Origin: a virus | Virus record (IMG/VR): IMGVR_UViG_3300047353_000607 | Coordinates: 1-37,132 of that record | Reading direction: 5' to 3' (one strand) | DNA length: 37,132 bases | Shown: in pieces, positions 6,911 through 37,132 of the stretch | Layout: each line of letters opens with the position of its first letter | How positions within the stretch are numbered: the first letter of the stretch is position 1 | Program-made: the position numbers and the translations under genes | The notes under the pieces: model-generated | Told to the model about the DNA's origin: nothing | Seen by the model: only the letters and a program-made list of their open reading frames with translations | The model's database searches: none

Positions 6911-6918
6911 TATTTATC
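6911..6918 (-). promoter_or_regulatory. T4-type late promoter (GATAAATA)
   Basis: The minus strand reads GATAAATA, ending 23 nt before the ATG at 6888. It overlaps the TAA stop of the giant gene. This would allow the 204-aa protein and the fibre genes to be made without transcribing the whole 15-kb gene upstream. Confidence 0.8.
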
Positions 6919-21900: not shown

Positions 21901-22060
21901 CAACTACACCAGGCTGTATAAGCTGGTCCATTGTGCTTGCTAAAAACTTTTTATTAGCAGGGGTTCGATAATATCTTGGTAAATGGCTTGCACTTTGTCT
22001 TTTACGATTTTCATTACCTCCTGGCAACGGTTGGTCTGATTGATCGTTGTTATATGCCAT
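6914..22060 (-). CDS. Giant virion structural protein, 5048 residues (baseplate region)
   Basis: One uninterrupted frame of 15,147 nt. The N-terminal ~170 residues (PRYYRTPANKKFLASTMDQL, then YYAWDPHVDWDKL, NFREYYWLP) resemble very large structural proteins next to gp6 in marine T4-like phages. FG-GAP-like blades occur near residues 2197, 2252, 2999, 3051, 3108 and 3184; one carries a DINKNGD loop like the Ca-binding loop of integrin-type propellers. Repeats of the GKGYRYPP/GQGYTSPP type lie near residues 3620, 3980 and 4020. Beta-domains opening with ADGS- or ASGS-like motifs recur near 684, 4080, 4395, 4475, 4560 and 4928. The end is SDSNISRFLRAARVDLPR. It starts on a TAATG overlap with gp6 and has a strong GGAGGAGG ribosome site. 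It occupies the place of T4 genes 7-10; that it replaces them is inferred. No enzyme motif was seen. Confidence 0.9.
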   Translation of the reverse strand: MAYNNDQSDQPLPGGNENRKRQSASHLPRYYRTPANKKFLASTMDQLIQPGVVEKLNGYVGRKTAKAFSSTDNYVSDVSADRENYQLEPASIVKDNLGNVTFYKDYNDYVNQLDSFNKGTNDHSILNQQEYYAWDPHVDWDKLTNFREYYWLPNGPQSFGVPGNTIDVESTYTVRIGDNVDNNTYVFSPDGLTNNPTITLYRGITYKFDIDTPNLPFTIKTKKTLDEGYDLDSSSIIVLEGVSVQGLEKGVSTLQLGTDTPDILYYMASNDLQASGTIVVKDISEATFIDVEKEILGKKTYKASNGAVLSNGMKIFFTGEVEPASYAEGAFYVEGVGDKIKLVSETNLNVPTDFTDDVEIAFDANGFDRLPFGKAIGFPTKKDYLVINRSAKDGNLWARYNRWFHKSVIETSAAQNNQPSDLDQLQRAKRPIIEFEADIKLHNFGTKIKKDVDLIDNFTTDVFSTIEGGIGYNIDGIDIVKGMRILFTADTDILVKGRIFEVDIIKFAGGESTNNQITLKEVSDSIPQENETVLALNGNTFKGKMLYFQNGTWQETQQKTNTNQPPLFDIFDSNGKSYSDTSTYEASTFSGNKLFSYKQGTGPSDTELGFPLSYRSISNVGDIVFNYDILQDTMTYTNENNIFKVNTDVGFLRKYSDLNVFETVTGWKKVTTLTEQPVIRQYVFDNTTTGFEIDVYNNSGFLNDLWVRVYLNNKLQFENVDYTITTNNQNNAQINFNNTLVLNDDIVIKTKSKTLKNDNGFYEIPTSLERNPKNENLKEFTLGEVNDHVSTIVENLDNFAGVFPGTGNLRDLSNLSDLGRRFLQHSAPMNLSLYHITDKDSNIIKSLDYARTEYNRFKREFLQVALNSEFQGSTKDHVDSILQTINSVKSKEMPFYFSDMVPTGAVKKLSYTILDADETFFALSEVFDNNTLSKKAVSVYKNNIQLVYNKDYTFNSDGFAVVTATKAQDDVIDIFEYETTNGSYVPPTPTKLGLYPAYEPMLYSDDTYLTTTSFIQGHDGSRFVAFNDYRDDLLLELEKRIFNNIKIKYDPTLLDINDLVPGEYRQTGMSFSEINKSMLSNFLSWSKFIDTDYTLHNFFERTNTFTFNYSKSNSPSGSTLPGFWRQIYKRAFDTDRPHTHPWEMLGLTIKPSWWDTQYGPAPYTKDNLLMWTDLQDGILRQPGVKYKILNKYVRPNLLANIPSDANGNLLPPLSIGWISNYQPDSISNSFVFGDGAPVESAWRNSSDYAFSLIKAFIINKPSLIFSTGFDRFNQIRNSAGAIVYKPTNKRITLKDLVFPSVASDATQTFTSGLINYIASYMAGDVLKNYAKYKENITSIDNQIGFKLAGFTDIEKFKLILDSRTPTNEGNVFVPDENYQIFLNTSSPVKTVEYSGVIIERRTDGYVIKGYSPNNTIFKYFSAVSKQNDPSINIGGISEDYVEWDSNKTYVAGQNVEYQGSYYRTKTQHQSTQLFDETQFAKLAALPLKGGREAFIRKQFTNNIINEMPYGTLLTGIQDVVDFLLGYGEYLKSEGFVFDYFQGDSKVVLDWRHCVNEFLFWTTQNWAAGSVITLSPGAEQIKINTNYSMVDNIFDGFYGYGLLKADGQKLVEDFANLGRSPNEFSIGPKNTADGIYFISLPLVQKEHVVIIDNATVFGDVIFDQQPGYRQERIKILGYRTTDWDGSLNIPGFIFDEPNIVEWEQWQDYNIGAVVKNKEFYYSAPKKVPGSQTFDATNWNVLSEKPEGGLYANFEYKTNQFADFYDLDSDNFDVEQQKMAQHLIGYQKRQYLQNIVNDDVSQYKFYQGFIQDKGSKNALTKLFDALASDDKDSLEFYEEWAIKDGQYGASEGFDDVIFRLDEGKFRLVPQPIELVNSTTGRETDLIYRIKPYEVYQKSKNYNHKPLPAKYVFDSYTKNAGYVNQQDVRGIVTNYENILDFNFADIAKNAYIWVGNQDKDWTVYKHIDTPYVINQIGKGEATFDITVDINVKDFVKGDIIGINAIHNDSTSLNLDGFYKIDSINNNVITVETNSPKTTEDSDLVGNITVFLKVRATNVVEANKIVQKNLHGEDLLWIDSITDDNEWAVYKNTNSFIDHQRINNPVSNASGNIESITLDVASTTIFNQGFHKLSKYDRITFSDIQGTVELNSTSKYVGGTITSSSFQLYDDPDLTIPTNSSSFTAHTFRTGKWINNGSNFGTSIAVDDRNTTLLVSTPDDADGKVYVYNRPTNALTYILTQTIEPFKFGNDRQRFGAGLAISPDGEYVVVGSPNASNVKTKYSGAFQSAVDYPKNSIVGKDQGLWRAKIDIEGEEDNIVFNSFSSVVENIEAAGLQNNSTDFIPTLLVGDYAIDPNNNLLAFNGLPTSHILVRAPFSLYEGSGINDQVRLQWNSVTYGNQDLSALASRAPFNGSHAVITDTFLSQEHTIQKKIDEVLYVNSSTTAVDIGDVLQTPVATGTVEYTKLVGAEILIYLRDVNGSFNTSDSLFRDDGDFIGEYVKQGPVDPVNTSTVWGGYWWIDTPVYTPTSSTTNIDKGAGLVYWDLISDSTPTGRYYYSSLDYLTTDISSQNTFTGYIRTLTYRGLPGAGGSNSTFSSNLYVMRAPKALSDTISPGDPVSVYVNQLPQYTTGDFKDLTTIGLSSTVTNTTRNVYDVWDGYINLDFTKTDASDNPFEPRVGDTVRDLTTGATAEVTFYQRNSLNATIFVKNLVGTFSVGDDYGQNAEIEYLATPGDPDVNYQTDRVMGEIQFTSLGYTPSGIGKMLVFDSGNPITLSAEDNINEVEYWMYTEGNVLGIPRLPNPPSSINNDWEQVYRIPAESTGTPSGFTNQGLYTVYSRSAPGRYDEIGTYTVPEQQSNFKLGSNIKIAKTSNGLYRTMVHAEGTQTQSSPGRIYFIKTGIENGITYTWEYAKNKKYKGVFNESISYFTNDIVYRENPAVSGTGVLYVAKTNLAPGTFNTTDWTSTDDLIDYVGFIPNSSGTSVINDSTDGSTVLDQGLLSTFGSEFDINKNGDVLIANALYDNDKTNQVVVYRQNNGFWERGQEIQAPDKTSGFGKAIAISDDGMYIAISEPFNDDYNADQGKVSIYHQVNGVFTFLQDLQSPNNERAERFGWELQYDGNKLFVTSRNADSTETTTFDSNTTRFDNSFTEIVEERKDVGVVFVYEKTPTGMLFAQTIQIPDSDVNTFGRNILAKLNHFYTGLETKVDENSQGQVVDFRIDQDVKMWETYRSSNKTVDVEKIKKIFLYNIKENELLTYLDYIDPIQGKVAGPAEQELTYKTYFDPAVYTTSSSISAIQDQTSAWGPKQVGEVWWNLTTAKFTNPYQGSIQYATQSWNKVFQGNSINVYEWVESDVLPSAWDAESDTETGFSKGYSGKSLYGDSSYSTRRVYNEILKTFKTMYYFWVTDKTIVPNVEFRKIDTREIAQYITDPAAKGHRFVALISPEKFVLYNCEPLIKGTDVAINIQFWTIKNQNQNIHNQYQIVSEGLETSQPNPDVVIKWFDSLIGYDAQSRIVPDPTLSDREKYGSLNRPRQSWFKNKNEALKQVIERVNLVLTKNLIIDDKDISKLSLNDPILTTASNLYDVEVETVADLATVGTDKIERAVLSPVIKDGKITDVTIINPGKGYRYPPTISIAGKGTDAELLPVIDGAGKIISVTVLQEGTYYDSSTILTVRNFSVLVKADETLLGKWALYQRENRAWNRIKSQSYNVSLFWKYIDWYATGYNEATDIDYLIDNSYELTSLDNPVGSVVKISNIGTGGWLLIEKISASDSEDYTQNYKTIGRQNGTIKFNETLYDSEAAFTGFDTISFDTKVFDSEPIKELRIILNTIKDDILIDELLVEFNKLFFASLRYVFSEQTYVDWAFKTSFIKAKHNVGSLREDITFNNDNLPSYEAYVKEVKPFATKIREYLSAYEGLDPTKTVTTDFDLPASYNAIEGKILPKNIKVIDDVLVGTTPDLETYPNKNWLDNSSYSIVSVTPVDGGQGYTSPPELTLTGGGGSGTVLKTYLGTKGDVTKVDVVVSGSGYYSTPVISVNGNLIDGGRDATFSVELGNNPVRGITTTVNFDRTTGTYVYTQIDQTQTFTASGSQFEFNLNWPIDLKITDISVFRNNIEQLSNEYTYTNILDATASYERYYGQVSFTNKPDANDIIVINYKLSPDLYQAADRISNLYNPQEGQLGKELSQLMTGIDYGGVEVKSFGMSQGQGWDSDAWFGSTWDSYDNTYNDEIFELGDSTTLFNFSKPLETGVEYHVYRNNVRIDDPNFGTAQQTNPNALVQSITGAGQTAWSRTDDDYDVTNYVAFNEEAVPFGNTDVVIFRKSTSDGTFLPNEQTYDSIIQGGSLNYSTATGLESADITIDGDGFVTPTTSAGPEEQVPGQILDTVDIKVFERPKGGGSQVASTNYNGNGSKVTFDIGAKPLTTQSVFVKVAGNIQTLGEDNDYTIDFNNNTITLASAPAINSKVNIITLGVSGTKIIDIDTIVADGSTTSFITNVRYKANLQNIITMNGLPIENVVNKSKKADGIAGNALIKFAIPPTAGSEIKYVFFEDDLLVKNYSEVNVETITADGSSLAYDITTTPSVQQPLHFKTLVKAGNKIFNAGYNQRYITKATTLEYKIEEWQFPPGSLDSRYVEVYLNGVILDTVKWNLIVGASTVIRLKGEVQQQDGDILDVFVMTDGEYRFGYVDSASRLFVKTPNQIHFDTAIAEGTEIEIFTFNNHDYQDIQTINYDVIDRINLVPGTDEYQKYIHLHNGLIKLNQEAIDAQYLWVSINGQLLTPSVDYFVTDNKQYVKIESTISENDVVQVVHFAASKTQNKFGWSQFKDMLNRTHYIRINNEEEVTLAKDLYQYDQSITVINGEALPSPVAGSLKPAIIMIGGERIEYFVRNGNVISQFRRGTLGTGVKNMYPADTVVLNISGKNSMPYKDETLTTIFTADGTSSTYELDFTASNINEFEVFVAGKRLRKNSINNYIFNEITGPVSQDSPEGDETISAEFTVNGNQLVLTTTPTQNTKVIVVRKQGQQWTEPGTALADSDSNISRFLRAARVDLPR

Positions 22061-26110: not shown

Positions 26111-28048
26111 CTAGGTTTGTGTGCCACGCCTGGCATCATACTCTGCCTCAAATGCGGCTGTTTCTGCATCTATCTGGGCTTGTTGATCTGCAGTTATGGG
26201 TACAGGTGTTGTGTTAATTCTATCAGGTTTATATTCTGGTCCGCCTTTTATAACATCTTTACCAGTTACTGGATCTACAGCAATACGCTTCTTTTCAGTA
26301 TAACTAAAACCGTCAGCATCTACACCCGTTACTTCTTCAAATCTAGCTGTTACTTTTCCTTCGGCATCCTTTGCATATCCTGTAATTTTAGGTGCAGACG
26401 CTTCAGGAATTACATTTCCATCATTACCTACTAATACAGCTTTACCGCCAGAAGTAATTGTTTCGGTTGTAGTTGTTGATGTTGTAGATGTTTTAGTACC
26501 GTCGTCTGATACTGTAGTTGTTGTTTCAGTTTGTGGTTGGCCATTTTGGTTTACTAATGTAGCATCTTTGTTTTCAGCGGCGGCTTCTTCATTTGCCCTA
26601 TCTTCGTTTGGATTGCCGCTTGCAGCTGGAACTTGGCATTGCTTGAATGTATCTTCAGGATTTTTCTCTTTATTTTTATCATCACTAGTAGCGTTTGCTT
26701 TACCTTCTTCTATCTTTTTAGGATCGTTATCTGTTTTTTCAGGAGTGTGTTCTTCGGGATTCTTATTTTCTTGTCCTGTCCAAGATCCTCGCTTAGGTAC
26801 TCTATTTGGAATCGGTGCAGCACCTGCTTCTGCCGCAGCAGGACCATTCATATCAATTCTACCAGCTGTTTCTTTATGTGCTGCAGATTTGATATTACTT
26901 GAACCAGCACATGTAAGCATGCCGTCTGCTCCTACTTTTACTGTCCAATTAGCTGATGTTTCCATTGCCATTTGATTGCCCGCTTTTATATTAATATTTT
27001 GTCCTGCTTCTAAATTAATATTTCTATCTGCTTTAAAATTAAAGTCATTTTCAGTATGAATACTAATACTATCTTTTGAATAAATGTCAATTTTTCCGTT
27101 AGCTGTCATTTCAATCCAGCTATCACCACTACCGTGTGCAATGTATACTAAGTCTTCTGAATTATGTAATAATATTTGATGTCCAGTTCTAGTACGAATT
27201 CTAAATAATTCGTTAAACGGTTTTGTAGGATCACCACCGTCTGGTATACTAGCATATTCGCTAGGTGAAGTTTTAGCAGATCCTTTTCTAAAAAGCGTAG
27301 GATCACCGTCATCCATAACTAACGTTGTTCCTGTTAGCCTACTTGCTTTTATATCTATGCCGTCAATTTTGCCTCCAGACTTTACTATAGGTTTTCCATC
27401 ACGTCTATCTACTGGTCCAGGACTACTCCAACCAAATACCATACTAGGCAAATCTCGTCTAGCACTAGAAGTTGTTGTTCCTCGAACAGGATCGTCTGCT
27501 AATCCGTTGTTATCTAAAACAGCACACGCATCAGCGTTACACGGCTTTAAATATTGTGTTGCGTTTGATCCGTTAGCTTCTTCAGTTTTTTTATTATACT
27601 CGCCGACTGGTCTTGCTTTTGTAGGATCCTCTTTGTTAAACTTAGTACTTGCATTTCCAGGAACCATAAAGTTCATATTTTGATCTTGTATACAGCCTAT
27701 CCAATATCCTTTACCTCTGTTTCCTTCAGCAAATATAACTAGTACCTTAGTGCCAATATCAGGTGGTACAGCCCAAAAGCCATAACTTTTTTGTGTATAA
27801 TCAAATCCATCATTTTCGCTTACACCTGAAAACGGCGTAACTCCGTAGAACGGACTAAGATAACTTACCGGAACATATTCGCCGGAAGATTCTGAGTTAC
27901 CTTCGCTACTGGTTTTTAAAAGTTCTACCTTTACTGATCCCATGTAATCTACATCAAGATGTTCTCTAACAATAGCCACATACGGACCCGGACCTTCTAA
28001 TTGTTTTGCCTGTTGTTTGACGTGGGGTGAACGTGTTTCTTTAGCCAT
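26111..28048 (-). CDS. gp5: Baseplate hub/spike protein gp5, without visible lysozyme domain
   Basis: 645 residues. Residues ~22-127 form the gp5-type OB fold (YVAIVREHLDVDYMGSVKVE, FWAVPPDIGTKVLVIFAEGN, GYWIGCIQD). Residues ~238-375 give VgrG-like strands running into a beta-helix (RIRTRTGHQILLHNSEDLVY, WIEMTANGKIDIYSKDSISI, then repeats of the NINLEAGQ type), the membrane-puncturing spike. T4 gp5 carries a lysozyme between these parts; here the link (128-237) shows no lysozyme signature. Residues ~415-645 are acidic, Thr-rich and probably disordered. They include PEEHTPEKTD, a motif type I have seen after the spike in other marine phages, and a run of TTTVSDD/TSTTSTTTTE. The ATG overlaps the stop of the upstream hub-like gene by 1 nt (TAATG). 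Confidence 0.9.
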   Translation of the reverse strand: MAKETRSPHVKQQAKQLEGPGPYVAIVREHLDVDYMGSVKVELLKTSSEGNSESSGEYVPVSYLSPFYGVTPFSGVSENDGFDYTQKSYGFWAVPPDIGTKVLVIFAEGNRGKGYWIGCIQDQNMNFMVPGNASTKFNKEDPTKARPVGEYNKKTEEANGSNATQYLKPCNADACAVLDNNGLADDPVRGTTTSSARRDLPSMVFGWSSPGPVDRRDGKPIVKSGGKIDGIDIKASRLTGTTLVMDDGDPTLFRKGSAKTSPSEYASIPDGGDPTKPFNELFRIRTRTGHQILLHNSEDLVYIAHGSGDSWIEMTANGKIDIYSKDSISIHTENDFNFKADRNINLEAGQNINIKAGNQMAMETSANWTVKVGADGMLTCAGSSNIKSAAHKETAGRIDMNGPAAAEAGAAPIPNRVPKRGSWTGQENKNPEEHTPEKTDNDPKKIEEGKANATSDDKNKEKNPEDTFKQCQVPAASGNPNEDRANEEAAAENKDATLVNQNGQPQTETTTTVSDDGTKTSTTSTTTTETITSGGKAVLVGNDGNVIPEASAPKITGYAKDAEGKVTARFEEVTGVDADGFSYTEKKRIAVDPVTGKDVIKGGPEYKPDRINTTPVPITADQQAQIDAETAAFEAEYDARRGTQT

Positions 28049-30750
28049 TACTGAGGACCTCTTCGATCAGTGTTATAAACTGGTGGCTTTCCTTTGCCAG
28101 CACTAGAAGCTGTTGTTGTATCAAATTCTCCACCTTGTGCATTTCCAAATCCGTTATTATTTCCGCCAGCATCAGTTGCACTAGTGCTTGATGTTGAACC
28201 TTCAGGATTACCTGTAAGTGCATTAGTTTCAGTTTCAATTAATTGCTTTTTAGGATCATCAGTTGTAACTGCTCCTGTATTATCTTTTGTAGCTACTTGG
28301 TTAGTATCTGATTCTTGCTTTGGCCTACGCATTGTCTGTAATGTTTGTGTAAACTGGCCTCCTGAAAATTTATTAGCTACAAATAATACTTTATATAATC
28401 CACTAAATTTACCTACAGGAGCTGTACCGCCTCCTGGAAATGTCATATAGTTTCCTACATAATCAATAGGTGTCCTAAAATTTAGTTCAATATCTACTTC
28501 GCCGCTTTGATAATCCATTGTACCATCCGAAGTTAAGTTCATTGATGGACCTATACCTGCACTGTAATTGCCCATTCCACTATCAGCAATATAGTAAGGA
28601 TCTCCCCATATTTCTAAATCAACACTAAGTAAGTCTAATGGTGCATTTACCAAAGCTTCGTTAAAGTTTGCAGCAACAACCGACTCTGGATGTATCATAA
28701 CTCCGCCTGTATCTGTTGTATTGCCTTTGTTGACATCAGCTTTTACAGGATCAGCATTTATAGAATTTCCATCAGCATCAGTAGTACCAGTTGCAGCTGG
28801 TTTGTTATCTGCATTTACGCCTCCACTAGCAGATGTTTTTGCGTCAGCTGTTTTTTGACCAAAGTCACCTGCAATACTACTAAAGAAAGCAGTGTTAAAA
28901 TTTATATCAAAATTAATAATATCGTCATTTTGTCCTGTATAGATATAATTGTATTCTTTTGATGCTTGTGTTTGTAAACTTTCTAATCCTTTTGATGCTT
29001 CTGTTGGACTTCTAAAATTACTGTGATGTACTTTATACGGAACAACTCTAAACACAAAAATCTTTGGTGGTTGACCGGTTTTATCTATGTTTTCGAGATC
29101 GGAAACATTGTAAACATTAGTTTCAACTCTATACCAATCAAGCATTCCGTTTTCATCTGGTTTTTGATCAACAACACTTCTTCCAAATTCACTTACTAGT
29201 ATTACATCTTCTATAATTTGTTCTATTTTCTTTCCACTACTAACTGTCATCATTCGTTGATCAGGATTGCATTGTACTTTACAACGATCAATTTTTCCTT
29301 TTTCTTCTTCACTTTCAGCAGCAGCTTGTTTAACCATAGTTTTCTTGCCAACGTCATTTTTTGATTTTACAATCTTTGAACTTCCAATATCGTTTATATT
29401 CTTTGGATCATCTGCATAATCTCTTATTGTTTCGCCGAGATCAGATCTCTTTACACTAATACCTAGTTCTTTATCTAGTGCTGCTTTAAATTTTTCAATG
29501 GGCATGCTTTTTTCTTGTACAGCTATAGCAGACTCGTATAATCTCTGTTGTTGTTCTTCGGTAAGTTCACGCTTTGGTGTTCCAGCGCCGCTATCGTTGC
29601 CTTGTGTTGTTGCTGATCCTTCGTCTTCAGATGAAGCAAATTCTACAGATTCTTCAGCACTAGATTTCTTAGTAGGAAACATAATTATATACTGATTACC
29701 TTTGGACTTATTTTCCTGTTCAACACCTTCAAGTTCTTTTTCGTTCATATTTGTAGTCAGACTATCAAATCCCCACTGTAACATTTCTGCAACTGTTCTA
29801 CCTTCGAATGTTACATCATTTCTTGTAGACTGTGCCTGATCTGTTAATGCTGTTTCGTGATAAGGAATGGCAGTTACATTATATTGGCTTCCGCCTTCTG
29901 TAACGTCAAATTGTATATCAGTAAATTTTAAAGGAAATATGCGCCTTGAATTTGGTATACTAATTGGTCGGTTTCCTGCGTGTCCTTTAAATTCAACACT
30001 TAGACAAAAAGGTGCATCGATATAATTTTTATGACCGGCACTTAATGCTGCAATTTGTAATGCTTGTAAAAATAGTCCCATGCTATATGGTTCTTGTACT
30101 TTAAAACTTAAAGATAGTGCATTTGTAGATCTTGTTGCGGGGTTAGGTGCTATCATAGTTTCTATTTCAACATCGTCTATGAAATATTCTGTTTTTCCGT
30201 TTATTTCGTATATAGTTTTACTTCCAACTAACGGTTTTCCGCCTCCTGATTTAATAATTGTAATCATAGGATCAGCAAATCTGTAAGTTAAGTCTGGAAA
30301 ATTTAATTCAAAGTCTGTCAAACATCCTAGTGTAAAAACATAGTTGTAACTTGAGAACGGGCTGAGAATATTTTTTTGTTTTCCTAGGCCTCCCATTAAT
30401 CCTCCAAAGGCTTGAGCAATTCCTCCAAGCCCTCCGCTGATTAAACTTGCGCCTCCTGCAAAGCTAGGAAGTTTACTATTTAATACTTGGCTTATTCCAC
30501 CTTGTGCAAGATCAAGTGAACCAAGTGCTGGTCCGGTAATTCCGTTTATAGAATTAGGCATGTCGAGTGTTGCACCCCTAATTTCTGATAATGCACCTTC
30601 AACAGCACTTGCAACGCCGCCTACTGTAATTTTTCCTGAAGTCTGAAACTGAGTTGCTACTTGTGAAGCAGCATCAGCACCTGTTTGTGCTAATTCTTTG
30701 CCTTTGGACTTTAATCGTTCTGTTATGTTCTGTATATTAGTAGATGACAT
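28048..30750 (-). CDS. Baseplate hub-like structural protein, 900 residues
   Basis: The first ~125 residues are Gly/Ala-rich with little charge (SGGLGGIAQAFGGLMGGLG near 104-122), a likely inner-tube or assembly segment. From about residue 130 the fold is beta-rich (PFSSYNYVFTLGCLTDFELN, TEYFIDDVEIETMIAPNPA, PFCLSVEFKGHAGNRPISIP, RRIFPLKFTDIQFDV). Charged, Gln- and Glu-rich linkers around 340-470 separate it from a second half (VSSGKKIEQIIEDVILVSEF, FRVVPYKVHHSNFRSP, YIYTGQNDDIINFDINFN). Lying directly upstream of gp5 and downstream of gp53, it is a good positional candidate for the gp27-type hub ring that seats the gp5 spike, but it is more than twice as long as T4 gp27 (391). Direct homology to gp27 cannot be shown by eye. 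It begins immediately after the gp53 stop, with no gap. Confidence 0.8.
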   Translation of the reverse strand: MSSTNIQNITERLKSKGKELAQTGADAASQVATQFQTSGKITVGGVASAVEGALSEIRGATLDMPNSINGITGPALGSLDLAQGGISQVLNSKLPSFAGGASLISGGLGGIAQAFGGLMGGLGKQKNILSPFSSYNYVFTLGCLTDFELNFPDLTYRFADPMITIIKSGGGKPLVGSKTIYEINGKTEYFIDDVEIETMIAPNPATRSTNALSLSFKVQEPYSMGLFLQALQIAALSAGHKNYIDAPFCLSVEFKGHAGNRPISIPNSRRIFPLKFTDIQFDVTEGGSQYNVTAIPYHETALTDQAQSTRNDVTFEGRTVAEMLQWGFDSLTTNMNEKELEGVEQENKSKGNQYIIMFPTKKSSAEESVEFASSEDEGSATTQGNDSGAGTPKRELTEEQQQRLYESAIAVQEKSMPIEKFKAALDKELGISVKRSDLGETIRDYADDPKNINDIGSSKIVKSKNDVGKKTMVKQAAAESEEEKGKIDRCKVQCNPDQRMMTVSSGKKIEQIIEDVILVSEFGRSVVDQKPDENGMLDWYRVETNVYNVSDLENIDKTGQPPKIFVFRVVPYKVHHSNFRSPTEASKGLESLQTQASKEYNYIYTGQNDDIINFDINFNTAFFSSIAGDFGQKTADAKTSASGGVNADNKPAATGTTDADGNSINADPVKADVNKGNTTDTGGVMIHPESVVAANFNEALVNAPLDLLSVDLEIWGDPYYIADSGMGNYSAGIGPSMNLTSDGTMDYQSGEVDIELNFRTPIDYVGNYMTFPGGGTAPVGKFSGLYKVLFVANKFSGGQFTQTLQTMRRPKQESDTNQVATKDNTGAVTTDDPKKQLIETETNALTGNPEGSTSSTSATDAGGNNNGFGNAQGGEFDTTTASSAGKGKPPVYNTDRRGPQ

Positions 30751-31047
30751 CTATAATCCCAACAAGCGTTTAAGTGATGGGCCTTTTGGTACAAATATTT
30801 CTGTTCCTGCTTCAAAGTCAAAAATAGGATCTTTTAAAATTTCAAGATTGCGTTGTGCATAAACCCACCATAGATCTTTGTCACCATACATATCAAATGC
30901 AAGCAAATCAGGTCGATGCGTATATTGCACTTGTATAATATAAAGTACATCGTCAGGTTCAGCTGGTATTGGTCTTATTTTTAATATATCTAAATATTGG
31001 CCAGAAACAAAAGGTGTTTTATAATAAGGACTACTTGGAGAATACAT
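30751..31047 (-). CDS. gp53: Baseplate wedge subunit gp53, minimal form
   Basis: 98 residues. The sequence QVQYTHRPDLLAFDMYGDKD followed by LWWVYAQRNLEILKDPIFDF and GTEIFVP is a clear gp53/LysM-like signature: a RPDLLAxDxYGDxxLWWV core followed by a Pro-rich loop. In T4, gp53 (196 aa) staples neighbouring wedges together in the baseplate. This copy is only the LysM-like half with a short N-terminal arm (SPYYKTPF). Its ATG overlaps the stop of the gp48-like gene by 1 nt (TAATG) and its stop abuts the next start, so it is translationally coupled on both sides. Confidence 0.93.
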   Translation of the reverse strand: MYSPSSPYYKTPFVSGQYLDILKIRPIPAEPDDVLYIIQVQYTHRPDLLAFDMYGDKDLWWVYAQRNLEILKDPIFDFEAGTEIFVPKGPSLKRLLGL

Positions 31048-31946
31048 TAAATAAACCCTCCTTTGCCTTTAGCATATCCGCCTTTGACAAATGTATCTAA
31101 ACTAAATTGATGAATTTCGCTTCTTGAATAAGTAGGTTGTGCAACAACTGTTATAGTACTTCTTGTTGGGGCATAGGTGTTTATCTCAGGACAATATATG
31201 TAGTCAACATCTGTTGGCAAATCAACTGAAAAAGATTGTATTACACATGGAACATTTTTAAAAACATAATCTCCGTATCCGTTTAGTAAAATAATTGGGG
31301 GCGGAGCGCCTTGGTTGCTTGTTGAACCGTATGCCATTTTTGTTACTGAACGCAAATATTGTACAGCAGCCGCCCAATACAATCCTTCAGCTGCACTTTC
31401 TACATAAAATTCACCTGAAATTTGTAATGCATCAGGTTGACTACTTTGGTATATTGGAAAAGGATAATTACTATGTGTAGGTTTCATCATACTATATTGT
31501 GCAGAATGTTGGAATATAATACTAGGAGTATAAGGAAAAATCATACCTTGGGTTTCATTCAATTGAGCTTGGAGTACACCATCTAAAGACATGCCAACTG
31601 GAATACTTAAACGCATACGCCAATCGCCTGTATCATCTCTAGACCAACTAGCGGTACTACCGCCACCAAAGATGCCAGCTAGTCCGTCTACAGGTATACC
31701 AAATCCTCTGATAGCACTCATTATGCCGCCAACGCCACCTGAAGCAATATCTTCTATAGTTTGTTTGACACCATTTTTTAAAATACTAGCACCAACACCG
31801 ATAGTTTCACTTCCTACTGTGTTGGTTAATGTTTTAGAAGGTGCTTTTGAATTTTGATTTTGAGAACCTGCACTTGTATTTTGTTGACTAACAGGAGATG
31901 CAACATTATTTGCTACAGTTCCGGGGCCGTCTTGTCTGCCTGACAT
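31047..31946 (-). CDS. gp48: Baseplate tail-tube cap protein, gp48-like
   Basis: 299 residues. Residues 1-55 are Ser/Gln/Asn-rich and probably disordered. A weakly amphipathic Gly-rich stretch (55-100) follows. Residues ~110-290 form the conserved domain: MIFPYTPSIIFQHSAQYS, THSNYPFPIYQSSQPD, LQISGEFYVESAAEGLYWAA, PPPIILLNGYGDYVFKNVPC, then SFSVDLPTDVDYI and APTRSTITVVAQPTYSR. I recognise this pattern from gp48-type tube-cap proteins of marine T4-like phages; gp54 (tube initiator) shares the fold, so the exact assignment between the two is less sure. It would join the baseplate to the first tail-tube ring. It is the first gene of the leftward late block, with an AGGAG ribosome site and a CTAAATA late-type promoter 32 nt upstream. 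Confidence 0.82.
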   Translation of the reverse strand: MSGRQDGPGTVANNVASPVSQQNTSAGSQNQNSKAPSKTLTNTVGSETIGVGASILKNGVKQTIEDIASGGVGGIMSAIRGFGIPVDGLAGIFGGGSTASWSRDDTGDWRMRLSIPVGMSLDGVLQAQLNETQGMIFPYTPSIIFQHSAQYSMMKPTHSNYPFPIYQSSQPDALQISGEFYVESAAEGLYWAAAVQYLRSVTKMAYGSTSNQGAPPPIILLNGYGDYVFKNVPCVIQSFSVDLPTDVDYIYCPEINTYAPTRSTITVVAQPTYSRSEIHQFSLDTFVKGGYAKGKGGFI

Positions 31947-31977
31947 ATATAAAGTCTCCTAGTATTACTAATACTAT

Positions 31978-31984
31978 TATTTAG
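31978..31984 (-). promoter_or_regulatory. gp48: Late-type promoter (CTAAATA) for the baseplate block
   Basis: The minus strand reads CTAAATA, ending 32 nt before the ATG at 31946. It departs from the T4 late octamer but keeps the TAAATA core. It abuts the -35 hexamer of the plus-strand gp55 promoter, so early and late polymerases would compete for the same DNA. Confidence 0.65.
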
Positions 31985-32013
31985 TTGACTTTATTAACAG
32001 AGTATATTATAAT
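31985..32013 (+). promoter_or_regulatory. gp55: Sigma70-type early promoter upstream of gp55
   Basis: TTGACT at 31985-31990 and TATAAT at 32008-32013 with a 17-nt spacer: a near-perfect host sigma70-type promoter. The predicted start near 32020 leaves a leader of about 15 nt before the gp55 ATG at 32035, which has a GGAGA ribosome site. It needs only host RNA polymerase, so it can make the phage late sigma factor early. Confidence 0.87.
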
Positions 32014-32034
32014 GTAACTACAAATGGAGAAAAT

Positions 32035-32868
32035 ATGAAAAGAGTAAACTATTTAAATAATAAGGATATCTTAAAAGAAATCCACAAGTCAAAGTCTACG
32101 TTTTGTAGCTACGTTGATCCTACGTATGCACAATACGACATAATCTTGCCTAGCATTGATAAGATTAATATAAGGACCGTAGCTGAAGCAAAACGTAATA
32201 AAGCAAAAAGACTACAAGTAACCGCATTTGATGCTGCTAAACTAGCAGGAAAAAAAGTAAAACAAGCAGAATTTGAAGTTGACTATAAAAAGATTACAAA
32301 AGAAGAATTAATTTTTAGAATTATGACGTTTGATCACATACCAGACGAGCCCGGAAGAAAAAAGACCCCCAAAACAGTTGCAGATCACAAAGTAAAACTT
32401 AATTTTCCGCCCTTTCAACATTATAAATTTAATGATGACGGTGAGTTGGTATGTATAGGCAAAAGTCATTGGGAAGGCGGTATGGAAAACGGATGTTTTA
32501 GCAAAGATCACGGCAAAGCAACTAATAAACTTGCTTTAATGTGGATGAAACTGTGTGATCGGTACGCTACACGTGGTAATGTTCGCGGATACACATACAA
32601 TGACGAAATGCGTGGCCAAGCAATACTACAACTAGCACAAATTGGCTTACAATTTGACGAATCTAAGTCTGCTAATCCGTTTGCATACTATACTGCGGCT
32701 GTAACTAACAGTTTTGTACGTGTTATTAACATTGAGAAGCGAAATCAAAACATTAGAGACGATATATTAGAGATGAATGACATGAATCCTAGTTTTACAA
32801 GGCAGAACCAAGGACAATGGGAAGCTGAACAGAAAAGAGAAACTGATAAAATAAATGCTTCTAAATAA
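32035..32868 (+). CDS. gp55: Late-transcription sigma factor gp55, with insertion
   Basis: 277 residues, against 185 in T4 gp55. The start VNYLNNKDILKEI matches the YNYVNNKELL start of T4 gp55 as I remember it. Residues ~176-245 are the sigma region-2-like core (YATRGNVRGYTYNDEM, then LQFDESKSANPFAYYTAAVT and FVRVINIEKRNQNIRDD), again close to T4 (KYKNPHAYITQ...RIKKERK). Between them, residues ~25-155 hold extra sequence absent from T4: IFRIMTFDHIPDEPGRKK, LNFPPFQHYKFNDDGELVC and GKSHWEGGMENGCFSKDHG. The protein should direct host RNA polymerase to the TATAAATA-type promoters of the minus-strand block. In T4 this also needs the sliding clamp and gp33, which are not in this window. The C-terminus is short, charged and Gln-rich. 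Confidence 0.9.
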   Translation: MKRVNYLNNKDILKEIHKSKSTFCSYVDPTYAQYDIILPSIDKINIRTVAEAKRNKAKRLQVTAFDAAKLAGKKVKQAEFEVDYKKITKEELIFRIMTFDHIPDEPGRKKTPKTVADHKVKLNFPPFQHYKFNDDGELVCIGKSHWEGGMENGCFSKDHGKATNKLALMWMKLCDRYATRGNVRGYTYNDEMRGQAILQLAQIGLQFDESKSANPFAYYTAAVTNSFVRVINIEKRNQNIRDDILEMNDMNPSFTRQNQGQWEAEQKRETDKINASK

Positions 32869-32872
32869 GTCG

Positions 32873-32901
32873 TTGACTTTTACATTATTTGAACGTATAA
32901 T
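32873..32901 (+). promoter_or_regulatory. gp47: Sigma70-type early promoter upstream of gp47
   Basis: TTGACT at 32873-32878 and TATAAT at 32896-32901, again with a 17-nt spacer: the same hexamers and spacing as the gp55 promoter. The -35 box starts 4 nt after the gp55 stop. Predicted transcription starts near 32908, about 25 nt before the gp47 TTG, and would carry gp47, gp46, hemC and downstream genes. Confidence 0.85.
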
Positions 32902-32932
32902 GCTAATAGTATGACTATAGAGAGATATAAAA

Positions 32933-33943
32933 TTGTTTAAAAAAGCGGCTGTTTTTACAGATATACACTTTGGCCTTAAGGGCAATAGCAAAGTACACAA
33001 CCAAGATTGTGAAAATTTTGTTGATTGGTACATAGATCAAGCAAAAGCTGCTGGTTGCGAAACCGGTATCTTCTGCGGTGACTGGCATCACAACAGAAAT
33101 TCACTTAACCTAACAACAATGGATGCAACAATACGCTGTATGGAAAAGTTAGGCAAATCTTTTGAGAAGTTTTACTTCTTTGACGGCAATCACGACTTGT
33201 ATTATAAAGACAAACGTGATGTTAATAGTACAGCATTTGCAAAACACATTCCTGGTATTACATTTATTGACGAAGTATACATTGAAGATGATGTTGCTCT
33301 TGTTCCGTGGTTAGTAGGTGATGAATGGCGAACAATTAAAAGTATAAAAAGCAAATACATGTTTGGTCATTTTGAACTTCCTAGTTTTTATATGAACGCA
33401 ATGGTGCAGATGCCCGACCACGGCGAACTGAAAGCTGAACATTTTGAACATCAAGAGTATGTGTTCTCTGGACACTTTCACAAAAGACAAAAACAAGGCA
33501 AAATACACTATATTGGTAACGCATTTCCACACAACTATGCAGATGCATGGGATGACAACCGTGGTATGATGATACTTGACAGAGAAAACAACAAAGAACC
33601 AGAATATATTGATTGGCCAGACTGTCCTAAGTATAGAACAGTTAAACTAAGTCAGCTAATTGACGAACAAGCAACACTAATTAAGCCAAATATGTATTTA
33701 CGGGTAAACTTAGACTTACCTATTAGCTACGAAGAAGCTAGTTTTATTAAAGAAACCTTTATTAATAACTTTGGTTGTAGAGAAATTAGTCTTATACCAC
33801 AAAAACAACTTGAAGAAATATCAACTGAACTAGATATTCAACAATTTGAAAGCGTTGATCAAATTGTTGCAGGCGAAATCAATGCAATTGACTCAGACAA
33901 CTTTAATAAAAAGATGCTAATGGATATTTATAACGAACTATGA
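32933..33943 (+). CDS. gp47: Recombination nuclease subunit gp47 (Mre11-like)
   Basis: 336 residues, close to T4 gp47 (339). All calcineurin-like phosphoesterase motifs are visible: FTDIHFG (D10, H12), CGDWHHN (D50), DGNHD (N86, H87), FGHFE (H146) and SGHFHKRQ (H181, H183). With gp46 it forms the phage Mre11-Rad50 complex that resects DNA ends for recombination-dependent replication. The start is TTG at 32933, because no in-frame ATG precedes the catalytic Asp and the MFKKAAVFTD beginning fits the family. The ribosome site is a weak AGAGAG. A 9-codon out-of-frame ATG ORF (32911-32940) overlaps this start. The last codons overlap the gp46 start (ATGA), coupling the two subunits. Confidence 0.95.
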   Translation: MFKKAAVFTDIHFGLKGNSKVHNQDCENFVDWYIDQAKAAGCETGIFCGDWHHNRNSLNLTTMDATIRCMEKLGKSFEKFYFFDGNHDLYYKDKRDVNSTAFAKHIPGITFIDEVYIEDDVALVPWLVGDEWRTIKSIKSKYMFGHFELPSFYMNAMVQMPDHGELKAEHFEHQEYVFSGHFHKRQKQGKIHYIGNAFPHNYADAWDDNRGMMILDRENNKEPEYIDWPDCPKYRTVKLSQLIDEQATLIKPNMYLRVNLDLPISYEEASFIKETFINNFGCREISLIPQKQLEEISTELDIQQFESVDQIVAGEINAIDSDNFNKKMLMDIYNEL

Positions 33944-35712
33944 TACAAATTAAAGATTTAACCGTCAAAAATTTTATGAGTGTGGGTAATCAAACCCAAG
34001 CTGTTGACTTTAACAGAGAAAACTTAACACTTGTGCTTGGAGAAAACTTAGATCAAGGTGGAGACGACAGCGGATCACGTAATGGTACAGGTAAAACTAC
34101 TATTATTAATGCACTTAGCTATGCATTATACGGAAAAGCACTTACAAATATCAGAGCAAACAATTTAATTAATAAAACTAACAGCAAAGGCATGTTAGTT
34201 ACACTACATTTTGAAAAAAACAATGTAGATTATAGAATCGAACGTGGAAGATCCCCTAATGTACTAAAGTTTTTTGTTAATGACCAAGAACAAGAACTAG
34301 TAGACGAGTCACAAGGCGACAGTCGACAAACACAAAAGGACATTGACGGCTTGCTTGACATGAGTCATGACATGTTCAAGCACATTGTTGCACTAAACAC
34401 TTACACTGAGCCGTTTCTTAGCATGAGACAAAACGATCAACGTGCTATTATCGAACAGTTACTTGGTATTACTATCCTAAGTGAGAAAGCTGATGCACTA
34501 AAAGAGCAAACACGCATCACTAAAGAGTCTATTACTACCGAAACATTAAAAATTGAAGCAATGCAAACTGCAAATAGTAAAATTGAAAGTACTATTAGTA
34601 GTCTACAAGGCACACAACGAGCATGGCTTGCTAAAAAACAACAAGATGTAAACAAATTAGCATCTGCAATCGACGAATTAGAGCATTTAGACATTGATGC
34701 AGAATTAGATTCGCATGATAAGTTATCAAATTGGACTGAACATAACAATGCTATTTTGGCTCTTAAAAAGGAACTTAGTACTTTAGAACCAGCACTACAA
34801 CGTGCAGACAAAAGTGTTGAAAAAGTTAATAAAGACATCGCAGATCTTGAAGATGCTGTGTGTTATACGTGTGGCCAAGAACTACATGTAGAGAAAAAAA
34901 CAGAAATTGCAGACCGTAAAGCTAAAGAACTTGACGATGCATTATCGTATCAAAAAGAAGTAGGCGATAAACTTATTGATGTTACTAAGTCGCTGTCTGA
35001 CATTGGAGACATCAACGGAAAGCCTAGTGTATTTTACGAAACTGCCAAAGAAGCATACGAGCATAGGCAAAACGTTGATAGTTTAAAAACTGCACTTAGC
35101 GCAAAAGAAAACGAAACTGATCCTTACCAAGCACAAATAGATGAATTGAACAACAGTGCAATACAAGAAATTGATTGGACACCAGTCAACGAACTTACAA
35201 CATTTAAAGAACATCAAGACTTTTTATTGAAACTACTAACAAACAAAGATAGTTTTATCCGTAAAAAGATTATTGATCAAAACTTAGCATATCTAAACAA
35301 CAGACTTACATATTACTTAGATAAACTAGGATTACCGCATAGTGTTATATTCCAAAATGATTTAACTGTTGAAATTACACAGCTTGGTCAAGATTTAGAC
35401 TTTGATAATCTATCAAGAGGTGAACGTAACAGACTTATTTTAGGCATGAGTTTTGCGTTCAGAGATGTTTGGGAAAGTTTATATCAAAAAATTAACTTGT
35501 TGTTTATCGACGAGCTTATTGATAGTGGTATGGACACTGCCGGTGTAGAAGGTTCGTTAGCTGTTCTTAAAAAGATGGGCCGAGCTGGTGATAAAAATGT
35601 GTTCCTTATTTCACATAAGGACGAACTAATAGGAAGGGTCAATTATGTGATGAGAGTTGTAAAAGAAAACGGCTTTACATCATACGAAAATGATATTGAC
35701 ATTGTAGAATGA
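33940..35712 (+). CDS. gp46: Recombination nuclease ATPase subunit gp46 (Rad50-like)
   Basis: 590 residues, close to T4 gp46 (560). Walker A is NGTGKTT (K52); a Q-loop-like region follows near 155-163 (YTEPFLSMR). Coiled-coil arms span about 180-300 and 315-400, with a CYTC zinc hook at C308/C311. The ABC signature is LSRGERN (491-497), Walker B is LLFIDELID (D524, E525), and the switch His is in ISHK (H559). All motifs look intact, so an active SMC-like ATPase partner of gp47 is expected. The loop before Walker A is longer and Gly/Asp-rich (GENLDQGGDDSGSRNGTGK). The gene overlaps gp47 by 4 nt upstream and hemC by 4 nt downstream. Confidence 0.96.
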   Translation: MIQIKDLTVKNFMSVGNQTQAVDFNRENLTLVLGENLDQGGDDSGSRNGTGKTTIINALSYALYGKALTNIRANNLINKTNSKGMLVTLHFEKNNVDYRIERGRSPNVLKFFVNDQEQELVDESQGDSRQTQKDIDGLLDMSHDMFKHIVALNTYTEPFLSMRQNDQRAIIEQLLGITILSEKADALKEQTRITKESITTETLKIEAMQTANSKIESTISSLQGTQRAWLAKKQQDVNKLASAIDELEHLDIDAELDSHDKLSNWTEHNNAILALKKELSTLEPALQRADKSVEKVNKDIADLEDAVCYTCGQELHVEKKTEIADRKAKELDDALSYQKEVGDKLIDVTKSLSDIGDINGKPSVFYETAKEAYEHRQNVDSLKTALSAKENETDPYQAQIDELNNSAIQEIDWTPVNELTTFKEHQDFLLKLLTNKDSFIRKKIIDQNLAYLNNRLTYYLDKLGLPHSVIFQNDLTVEITQLGQDLDFDNLSRGERNRLILGMSFAFRDVWESLYQKINLLFIDELIDSGMDTAGVEGSLAVLKKMGRAGDKNVFLISHKDELIGRVNYVMRVVKENGFTSYENDIDIVE

Positions 35713-36452
35713 AACTAAAAATTGGAGTACGAGGAAGTAAACTAGCACTTGCATATGCTGAAAGAGCCTGCAAAGAACTTTCTTGTGATACCGAAATTAT
35801 AACTATTAAAACTGACGGAGATTTAAATCCTGATGTACCAATTTATGAAATTGGTGGCAAGGGTGTTTTTTGTAGCACAATAGAAACAAAACTACTAGAA
35901 GGCGACATTGATGTTGCTGTACACAGTTTGAAAGACATGCCAGGCGAAGAACATCCAGACTTGTCTATTACAGCAATGCTAAAACGCAATAGTCCACATG
36001 ATGTCTTAATTGGAAGTGTAGGATACGGATGTACAATTGGTACTAGTAGTCCAAGGCGTATTGCACAACTAAAAGAGTTGTATAAAAACTTAGATATAAA
36101 AATTAAACCCATACGTGGTAATATTGATACCAGACTTGAAAAACTTGATAACAAAGATTATGATGCAATAATTTTAGCCGAAGCAGGTTTACAAGCATTA
36201 GACATTCGACGTACTTGGTTGCGAGTACCTACTATACCAGCTGTTGGTCAAGGTATTATTGCATTACAAACTAGAAAAGACAATCAAGAAGTTATAGACG
36301 TTGTTAAGAAAGTTAATCATGCAACTACATTTGCACAAGCACAAGTTGAACGTGCATTTTTAAAAGGCATTGGCGGCGACTGTCATACAAAGTTAGCAGC
36401 TCATGCTACTGGTACTAATCCGATTACACTAAAGGCAATGTACTATGATTGA
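35709..36452 (+). CDS. hemC: Hydroxymethylbilane synthase (porphobilinogen deaminase), C-terminally short
   Basis: 247 residues. The enzyme joins four porphobilinogen units into hydroxymethylbilane, the linear tetrapyrrole that precedes heme, siroheme, cobalamin and chlorophyll. The match is unambiguous: KIGVRGSKLAL at the N-terminus (R8), IGGKGVF, VHSLKDMP with catalytic D76 (E. coli D84), GTSSPRR (R116, R117), PIRGNIDTRL (R136, R142), YDAIILAEAGL, IPAVGQG, and GIGGDCHTKLAAHA with C225 aligned to the dipyrromethane-binding C242 of E. coli. Bacterial enzymes are about 310 residues; this one stops 22 residues after that Cys, so about 45-60 residues of domain 3 are missing. The DNA after the stop does not continue the domain in any frame. 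The start overlaps gp46 (ATGA) and the end overlaps the next gene by 8 nt, and the AT-rich base use blends with the neighbours. It is a phage-borne host-type metabolic gene. Confidence 0.95.
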   Translation: MKLKIGVRGSKLALAYAERACKELSCDTEIITIKTDGDLNPDVPIYEIGGKGVFCSTIETKLLEGDIDVAVHSLKDMPGEEHPDLSITAMLKRNSPHDVLIGSVGYGCTIGTSSPRRIAQLKELYKNLDIKIKPIRGNIDTRLEKLDNKDYDAIILAEAGLQALDIRRTWLRVPTIPAVGQGIIALQTRKDNQEVIDVVKKVNHATTFAQAQVERAFLKGIGGDCHTKLAAHATGTNPITLKAMYYD

Positions 36453-36645
36453 TGATGACATACATGATCAATTAGTAAAAGCCTATTTAGAATATTTCAA
36501 AGCAAACGAAAACTTTGAAAAAAGGCTGAGCTTTAGAACACACCGAGCAAGCAGAAAATGGCTCAGAGAAATACGTAGACTAAGCAAAATTAGAGGCGAT
36601 GAGATACACGAGAAGTTCAAAACCAAAACAGAGGCAAAAAAATAA
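36445..36645 (+). CDS. Small basic helical protein, function unknown
   Basis: 66 residues. It appears fully helical: an acidic N-terminus (MIDDDIHDQLVKAYLEYFKA) is followed by a strongly basic stretch (FRTHRASRKWLREIRRLSKI) and a charged tail. Small proteins with this acidic-helix and Arg-rich pattern occur beside replication and recombination genes in T4-like phages, but I cannot name one. The Arg-rich helix could bind nucleic acid; this is inference. The ATG lies inside the last codons of hemC (8-nt overlap), which supports translational coupling and argues that it is a real gene. Confidence 0.75.
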   Translation: MIDDDIHDQLVKAYLEYFKANENFEKRLSFRTHRASRKWLREIRRLSKIRGDEIHEKFKTKTEAKK

Positions 36646-36666
36646 TAGGCACAGGTAAGTAAGTTC

Positions 36667-37116
36667 ATGCAGTGGACTTATGAAGGCAAGACAATTGACG
36701 AAATACCAAATGAGTATGAAGGTTTTGTTTATCTTATTACTAATACCACTACAGGCCAAAAATACATAGGTAAAAAACTAGCAAAATTTAAAACTACCAA
36801 GCCACCACTCAAAGGCAGAAAAAATAAAAGACGAGGTTACAAAGAAAGCGATTGGAGAGATTACTGGGGATCCAGTGACAGACTAAACGCAGATGTAGCC
36901 AAACTAGGCGAAGATAAGTTTACAAGAGAAATACTATACCTATGTAAAGGTAGGGGCGAAATGTCCTACATAGAGGCACGAGAACAATTTGATAGGCGTG
37001 TACTTGAAACAGATGAATACTATAACGGTATCATTAATGTTAGAGTAGGCGGATCAGACAAACTCAAACAGGCATTGCTAGAACAAAATATCAAGGCAAA
37101 ACAATCTAACACATAA
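36667..37116 (+). CDS. GIY-YIG-type endonuclease-like protein
   Basis: 149 residues, complete. The GIY-YIG fold signature is present in variant form: FVYLITNTTTG (Y22) then QKYIGKK (Y33, I34, G35), a basic loop (PPLKGRKNKRRGYK), SDWRDYWGSSDRL, and a helix with a candidate catalytic Glu (E103 in YIEAREQF). The GFVYLITN...YIGKK start and the KRRGYKESDWRDYWGSS middle match a nuclease family common near replication genes in T4-like phages. It could be a free-standing homing nuclease, a repair or resolvase-type nuclease, or a host-DNA-degrading enzyme. It begins 21 nt after the 66-aa gene, with an AGGTAAG ribosome site, and its stop is 16 nt before the window end. Confidence 0.83.
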   Translation: MQWTYEGKTIDEIPNEYEGFVYLITNTTTGQKYIGKKLAKFKTTKPPLKGRKNKRRGYKESDWRDYWGSSDRLNADVAKLGEDKFTREILYLCKGRGEMSYIEAREQFDRRVLETDEYYNGIINVRVGGSDKLKQALLEQNIKAKQSNT

Positions 37117-37132
37117 GGTTGGCGGGCCAGTT

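Follow-up and report, generated by a model that had tools for sequence, protein, structure and literature searches.

Why does a gene for hydroxymethylbilane synthase lie among the recombination genes of a phage? The question is raised by IMG/VR virus record IMGVR_UViG_3300047353_000607, a virus contig of 37,132 bases (the window, i.e., the whole stretch that was analyzed), in which the open reading frame (ORF) 35709-36452, directly downstream of a gp46-like gene, is confirmed by profile comparisons as hemC. The best answer, to which we give a probability of about 0.77 on sequence evidence, is that hemC is a phage-borne auxiliary metabolic gene (AMG): it would encode an active, shortened hydroxymethylbilane synthase, be co-transcribed with gp47 and gp46, and serve heme supply. 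This answer is built on the gene itself, its family, conserved residues, selection, a fold model, the genomic slot and the partner genes.

The encoded protein scores 256.3 bits against TIGR00212, the curated NCBIfam equivalog (cut-off 164), and 211 bits against Pfam PF01379, the N-terminal domain (cut-off 22.1). Fourteen residues are invariant in all 91 distinct phage HemCs (82 short, 9 longer): in E. coli numbering, R11, S13, K59, F62, S81, K83, D84, T127, S129, R131, R132, R149, R155 and C242; the roles attached to these and to other compared residues are presumed. Window D76 corresponds to the catalytic D84, and C225 to C242, the Cys that bears the dipyrromethane cofactor. The original prediction had claimed that D76, C225 and the substrate-binding Arg residues are retained, and D76, C225 and the main Arg residues are indeed in place. 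An AlphaFold2 model built from 33 sequences (pLDDT 92.1, pTM 0.88) retrieves HemC chains as its top 32 Foldseek matches; in VIA-align, the predicted model superimposes on E. coli HemC (1pda) with Z 30.3 and an rmsd of 1.4 Å over 236 residues and on B. megaterium HemC (4mlq) with Z 28.0. Rows 1-22 of that comparison are all HemC (Z 30.9-26.2) and the next row drops to Z 10.6, which points to a HemC fold. The phage form would thus share with cellular HemC (TIGR00212; 1pda, 4mlq) the fold, the catalytic Asp, the cofactor Cys and the main Arg set. In the viral collections, BFVD returned seven matches at E <= 0.001, all with TM <= 0.53 and none named HemC, and in PHROGs no family matched HemC at E 0.001.

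What sets the phage protein apart is its length, a point absent from the original prediction. It has 247 aa, versus 287 aa or more in the 109 complete copies among 110 cellular HemCs extracted as best matches to the phage protein, which are not a census. The model spans E. coli residues 4-265 of 313, a complete domain 3 is not found, and about 48 C-terminal residues are missing relative to E. coli HemC; the C-terminal profile PF03900 is covered only at positions 3-38 of 74, with 23.3 bits, below the cut-off of 26, which marks HemC as short in domain 3. Across 117 phage loci, HemC has 245-253 aa in 99 and 273 or 281 aa in 16, is broken at 179 aa in one and incomplete in one. In a longer phage form (L144), the PF03900 match still spans positions 4-71 of 74 (25.6 bits, cut-off 26), and in a SAR11 HemC (L159) it spans 2-74 of 74; loss of the end of domain 3 thus seems confined to the short phage group. 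SAR11 HemCs have 302-311 aa and a complete domain 3, while the phage form is shorter; among SAR11-order genomes, 106 of 117 contain a match, and every listed open frame has at least 298 aa. Shortness is not a phage invention, an idea dropped once it was found that NCBIfam already holds a short HemC family, NF002202 / PRK01066 (241 profile positions), curated for bacterial and archaeal genomes: a short cellular HemC exists, and the phage form is not claimed to be the shortest. The phage protein scores 98.1 bits against NF002202, far from its cut-off of 251, and its residue 204 aligns with profile position 231 of 241, so this profile seems to stop before the C225 region and the two shortenings differ. 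The 66-aa gene downstream of hemC was also considered as the lost remainder of domain 3 and rejected, as it follows gp46 in contigs that lack hemC.

Could so short a protein still be an enzyme? A HemC that has lost catalysis and is kept for another purpose (binding porphobilinogen or porphyrins, or acting as a scaffold), or for none, would fit the missing C-terminal residues, the PF03900 score below cut-off and copy L014, which is broken into 179 + 62 aa. We consider it quite unlikely, given the 14 key residues that do not vary in 91 copies and the pattern of substitution. Among 44 phage hemC genes of equal length, compared by the Nei-Gojobori method (394 of 941 pairs used, dS 0.05-1.2), the median dN/dS is 0.118 and the maximum 0.239: phage hemC is under purifying selection. 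The original prediction had inferred selection for activity and named a ratio near 1 as grounds for giving it up; the computed value bears it out, and relaxed selection is ruled out. Residues 210-247, which bear the cofactor Cys, are even more constrained (mean pN 0.049, pS 0.395) than residues 1-209 (pN 0.107, pS 0.509).

The phage HemCs appear to form a single clade. Among the best 80 of 251 confirmed relatives in the genome collection, the closest come from two SAR11 single-cell genomes (46 and 44% identity), in which hemC encodes 311 aa and is set as tsaD | hemC-hemD; a tsaD operon beside a hemC-hemD operon is described for alphaproteobacteria in the available text of PMC7641849. No cellular HemC found is closer than that of SAR11 (44-50% identity in the best matches). 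One tree comprises 149 rows (41 phage sequences, 107 bacterial ones and E. coli; three long cellular rows omitted); in it the phage sequences group together (SH-aLRT 99) and join the SAR11 rows (95). A second tree, of 73 rows, adds another 29 Pelagibacterales HemCs and places the phage clade (98) as sister of a Pelagibacterales clade (97), with joint support of 94, below the star threshold. Both trees are quick, made without bootstrap, and shared AT-richness may pull the groups together. A tree with cellular and viral sequences, as the original prediction had advised, thus suggests that phage HemCs are one separate clade, sister to SAR11 HemC; this concerns the origin of the gene and only hints at the host, which is perhaps SAR11 or its near kin.

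The phage surroundings of hemC are read from the plus-strand order gp55-gp47-gp46-hemC-66 aa gene-SegE:

35709..36452, plus strand: hemC, shortened hydroxymethylbilane synthase of 247 aa, ATG start, catalytic D76, cofactor C225; ORF exact and intact, assigned by profile, residue and fold evidence
33940..35712, plus strand: gp46-like SbcC/Rad50-type recombination nuclease subunit (PHROG 77, 325 bits)
32933..33943, plus strand: gp47-like SbcD/Mre11-type subunit, TTG start (PHROG 100, 227.5 bits)
32035..32868, plus strand: gp55-like late sigma factor (PHROG 12791, 271.4 bits)
32873..32901, plus strand: sigma-70-like promoter, TTGACT-17-TATAAT, 5' of gp47-gp46-hemC and kept in relatives
36445..36645, plus strand: small conserved gene of 66 aa, starting 8 nt within hemC; directly after gp46 in relatives that lack hemC
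36667..37116, plus strand: SegE-like GIY-YIG protein that closes the slot (Pfam PF19835, 122.5 bits)

The best PHROGs match of 36667-37116, phrog_447, is labeled 'NAD synthetase', versus SegE GIY-YIG in Pfam; the PHROG label looks wrong. Elsewhere in the window, 6914-22060 on the minus strand is one single ORF of 5,048 aa.

The gp46 stop (35712) and the hemC start share a 4-nt ATGA overlap, and the 3' end of hemC overlaps the start of the 66-aa ORF (36445) by 8 nt, in agreement with the positions originally predicted. This arrangement is widespread. A scan of IMG/VR with the HemC protein gave 58 loci (one of them, L058, of 26 residues only), and a profile scan contributed the best 80 of 173 stretches that encode a HemC relative; the order gp46-hemC-small gene-segE recurs in most loci, in tens of contigs from different metagenomes. 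In 70 loci with both genes (some contigs count as more than one locus), the gap between gp46 and hemC is -4 nt in 47 and 0 or -11 nt in 4; in the others it has the size of hemE (12), of hemE-hemF (3) or of a 92-aa ORF (4). hemC overlaps the small gene by 8 nt in 60 of 71 loci and by 11 nt in 10, with a gap of 196 in one.

A sample drawn independently of hemC, the best 80 of at least 594 confirmed relatives of the window gp46, shows the slot with and without its occupant: 20 carry hemC (16 alone, 2 with an extra insert, 1 as hemE-hemC and 1 as hemE-hemF-hemC), 53 have the small gene and SegE immediately after gp46, 6 have both of these plus another insert, and 1 ends too early. For the 59 measured slots that lack hem genes, the start of the small gene relative to the gp46 stop is -4 nt in 28, -7 in 10 and -10 in 6; the remaining 15 range from -5 to +390. 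The small gene is therefore coupled to gp46 in empty slots, and hemC occupies a coupled stop/start while keeping the coupling on both sides; its presence or absence between the same two genes makes it a cassette at a fixed slot. On a gp46 tree (FastTree; 111 rows, 56 with hem genes and 55 with none, the former enriched by hemC-based searches; short, identical and unclassifiable rows dropped), the presence of hem genes needs 14 changes, at least 10 of them forced by starred branches. With phage genes on both flanks (gp46, segE) and a cellular origin indicated by the trees, hemC would count as an AMG. Other inserts, a 92-aa ORF before hemC (L028, L029, L031, L032) and unidentified stretches of ~400 or 745 nt (L419, L434, L437, L438), make the slot look like a gene hotspot.

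Upstream, the 32873-32901 site matches the promoter pattern at 11 of 12 positions. The promoter scan as a whole found 19 sites versus 17.7 in shuffles, i.e., no excess; conservation is what singles this site out. A strict pattern, composed post hoc on sequences already seen, occurs 5' of gp47 in 53 of 57 loci (38 of 40 distinct segments) versus 232 of 20,000 random segments, and a lenient one in 57 of 57 versus 356 of 5,000. A second promoter-like site with identical hexamers and spacing (TTGACT-17-TATAAT) lies 5' of gp55, at 31985-32013. The original prediction that hemC is expressed with gp47-gp46 from an early promoter at 32873 is supported in so far as hemC runs in the direction of gp47-gp46 and is coupled to them, downstream of a sigma-70-like site that is conserved; 'early' is conjecture.

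Which phages are these? The isolates nearest to the window by gp46 are jumbo phages: PA5oct (Arenbergviridae; 49% identity), Phosso (48%) and Atu_ph07 (44%), to which a window virion protein also shows 34-37% identity. In PA5oct and Atu_ph07, the genes for the late sigma factor, the nuclease subunit and gp46 are ordered as in the window, and in Phosso a nuclease gene lies 5' of gp46 in the same direction; in none of the three is hemC annotated after gp46, and none is among the tblastn matches of HemC. By contrast, the window gp46 is only 25% identical to that of HTVC008M, and matches to 151 HTVC008M ORFs number 0.4-0.5 per 10 kb in window-type contigs versus 1.6-2.5 in six other heme-gene records. 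Core genes support an HTVC008M-like lineage for G029 (gp46 39%, gp47 42%) and L114 (gp46 39%, gp47 41%, gp55 50%), as well as for L106 and L107, which carry hemE only and whose capsid protein is 62-67% identical to that of HTVC008M. None of the named HTVC008M core genes was found in G059, G042 and G032, among which are the records with the longest arrays. One HemC clade thus appears to be spread over at least two phage lineages. A megablast of window positions 28000-37132 against phages gave no match, and tblastn of HemC, HemE and HemF against the phage collection gave matches of 40% identity or less. Six phage-labeled INPHARED records (OR844993, CAKLQH020000023, CAKLQF020000026, OR851535, AFYI01000004, AGRM01000003) contain hemC, and records of the same names contain hemE or hemF; all of these look like bacterial contigs.

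The product that hemC serves is best approached through the genes that join it. hemE lies between gp46 and hemC in L054-L056, L095-L099 and L104, and hemE-hemF in L089, L100, L101, L128 and L129; L105 has hemE in a slot that lacks hemC, and other backbones carry hemE-hemF-hemC, hemF-hemC-hemE and hemF-hemC-hemE-hemB arrays. An earlier set of 29 records had HemE in 4 (PF01208, up to 212 bits) and HemF in 1 (PF01218, 287 bits). In a survey of 42 chosen heme-gene records, 15 of them window-type and all of these fragments, HemB was found in 8, AlaS in 12 above the cut-off plus one weak match, and heme oxygenase (PF01126) in 8, with HemD and ferrochelatase in none of the 42. G059 (107 kb) encodes AlaS, HemB, HemC, HemE, HemF and heme oxygenase, G042 AlaS, HemC, HemE, HemF and heme oxygenase, and G052 and G055 AlaS and HemB. 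Phage HemF passes its NCBIfam equivalog cut-off (314 bits, cut-off 297), and phage HemB keeps the lysines aligned with E. coli K195 and K247, presumably the functional ones. An origin of phage HemE from SAR11 is unsupported: identity is 29% in one of two SAR11 single-cell genomes, with no match in the other, and 33% for the best-scoring HemE among 299 genomes of the phylum.

Three side observations concern these genes. L114, which also has hemF and hemC, encodes a cellular-type HemE at 2347-3378 (TIGR01464, 404.5 bits, cut-off 303) that is 27% identical to the phage-type HemE of L057. A ribose-phosphate diphosphokinase gene (455 bits; L144:8982-9941, minus strand) lies beside a hemF-hemC-hemE-hemB array. 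The HTVC008M protein AGE60402 (213 aa; L385:6808-7449, minus strand), annotated 'putative ferrochelatase', adjoins 2OG-Fe oxygenase genes and matches no Pfam family at E 0.001.

Both HemE and HemF are enzymes of the heme branch, after the branch point to siroheme and B12; the partner set therefore favors heme, with siroheme or cobalamin the less likely aim. That HemC feeds these two products instead, via the shared uroporphyrinogen III, is improbable: nothing fixes the branch in window-type contigs with hemC alone, but the genes that join hemC in the slot lie past the branch point, and HemD is missing from all 42 records. In favor of this rival, B12-dependent enzymes have been discussed for phage AlaS (available text of PMC11480375). 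Of the aims originally predicted for a raised flux (heme, siroheme or cobalamin), the first is thus favored, the other two recede, and the rise in flux itself is conjecture. A tetrapyrrole made for breakdown, in which phage heme oxygenase converts heme to biliverdin and bilins, is a rather remote prospect. It draws on the eight records with heme oxygenase, of which G059 and G042 hold it together with AlaS, HemC, HemE and HemF, and on published hemO-pcyX-alaS cassettes (PMC11480375, available text), but the enzyme is missing from 34 of 42 records, including all 15 window-type fragments, and in none of the eight does it lie beside the heme array. Assembly chimerism or host contamination, of which the phage-labeled INPHARED records with bacterial-looking hemC are a reminder, is refuted as far as sequence can refute it, since the gp46-hemC adjacency that the original prediction proposed to look for is seen again, with its junctions unchanged, in tens of contigs that come from different metagenomes, two loci (L001, L002) encode an identical HemC protein, and phage HemCs form a clade of their own.

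Several facts count against an active enzyme in the service of heme supply. Besides the partial domain 3 and the broken L014, K55 and R176 are changed in phage HemCs (and mostly so in 31 SAR11 sequences too), R146 is K in 79 of 82 short phage HemCs (mostly K in SAR11 also), R206 is kept in 63 of 82 short and 7 of 9 longer copies (changed in 19 and 2), and S128 is G in all 9 longer ones. hemC is dispensable, as it is present in only 20 of the best 80 gp46 relatives. Phage HemE (197-211 bits, cut-off 303) and HemB (171, cut-off 297) fall below their equivalog cut-offs, and their functions are therefore less sure than that of HemF. The 15 window-type records contain no AlaS, HemB, HemD, HemH or heme oxygenase; a window-type HemC would thus depend on the host for the other steps, although these records are all fragments and absence proves little. 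Finally, HemC activity, expression and host association are deductions from sequence.

On the reading that hemC supplies heme, the gene would be transcribed with gp47-gp46 from the host-type promoter, and its translation would be coupled to that of gp46. The protein would carry the dipyrromethane primer on C225 and join four porphobilinogens, with D76 as the catalytic acid/base; hydroxymethylbilane would pass to host HemD and onward to heme through host enzymes or, in relatives, phage HemE and HemF. As an enzyme HemC is slow and frequently limiting; it would agree with this that hemC by itself is the hem state most often seen in the slot. The likely benefit is that this slow step continues after host expression drops, so that respiration and ATP supply may last through infection. 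It is in this sense that we infer activity, timing, the host and heme as the product that matters. A broader scheme is possible, though doubtful: the phage lineages (jumbo kin and HTVC008M-like) might share a modular Shemin-type pathway, AlaS-HemB-HemC-(host HemD)-HemE-HemF, some with heme oxygenase, that runs most heme synthesis in SAR11-like hosts, and the short HemC, with the cofactor loop retained but the end of domain 3 gone, might differ from the host enzyme in quicker release, lost inhibition or a changed chain length.

Phage hemC is not wholly unreported. One sentence in the available text of PMC7029224 gives one pelagimyophage group (the 'deep ecotype') porphobilinogen deaminase and coproporphyrinogen oxidase; the passage has nothing on a slot, shortening, selection or ancestry, and by gp46 (25% to HTVC008M) these pelagimyophages are a different phage group from the window. 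Phage AlaS (valaS) is likewise a tetrapyrrole gene of aquatic phages with pelagiphage ties: in the available text of PMC11480375 it is active, hemO-pcyX-alaS cassettes are tied to pelagiphages, and heme and B12 genes are said to have been suggested earlier in cyanophage, pelagiphage and metagenome sequences; the main text, whose subject is alaS, hemO and bilin reductases, nowhere mentions hemC or hemF. Coproporphyrinogen III oxidase is among genes assigned to RNA viruses (PMC12806420), and porphyrin genes are common among the viral genes of PMC11515562, to judge from the accessible portions of both. Phage hemC is untreated in the accessible portions of PMC9203015, PMC9301287, PMC11515562 and PMC8620254, and PMC13079714 has no relevant passage. 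In the open-licence literature, supplements aside, neither the short HemC nor the slot after gp46 nor a set of AlaS, HemB, HemC, HemE and HemF was found described. The original remark that hemC is not known as an established AMG of T4-like phages needs correction on two counts: the nearest isolates are jumbo phages, and porphobilinogen deaminase has already been named.

An intact-looking HemC and the extra heme genes of its relatives suggest that phages push heme production in ocean bacteria; should SAR11 be the host, this concerns one of the most abundant bacteria of the sea. Contigs whose slot has from zero to three heme genes offer a ready comparison for the step that limits heme in infected cells. 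The shortened HemC tests what part of domain 3 the enzyme can do without, a matter that also bears on human porphyria variants. If the reading is true, heme synthesis joins photosynthesis, nucleotide metabolism and carbon metabolism among the pathways taken over by ocean phages one gene at a time.

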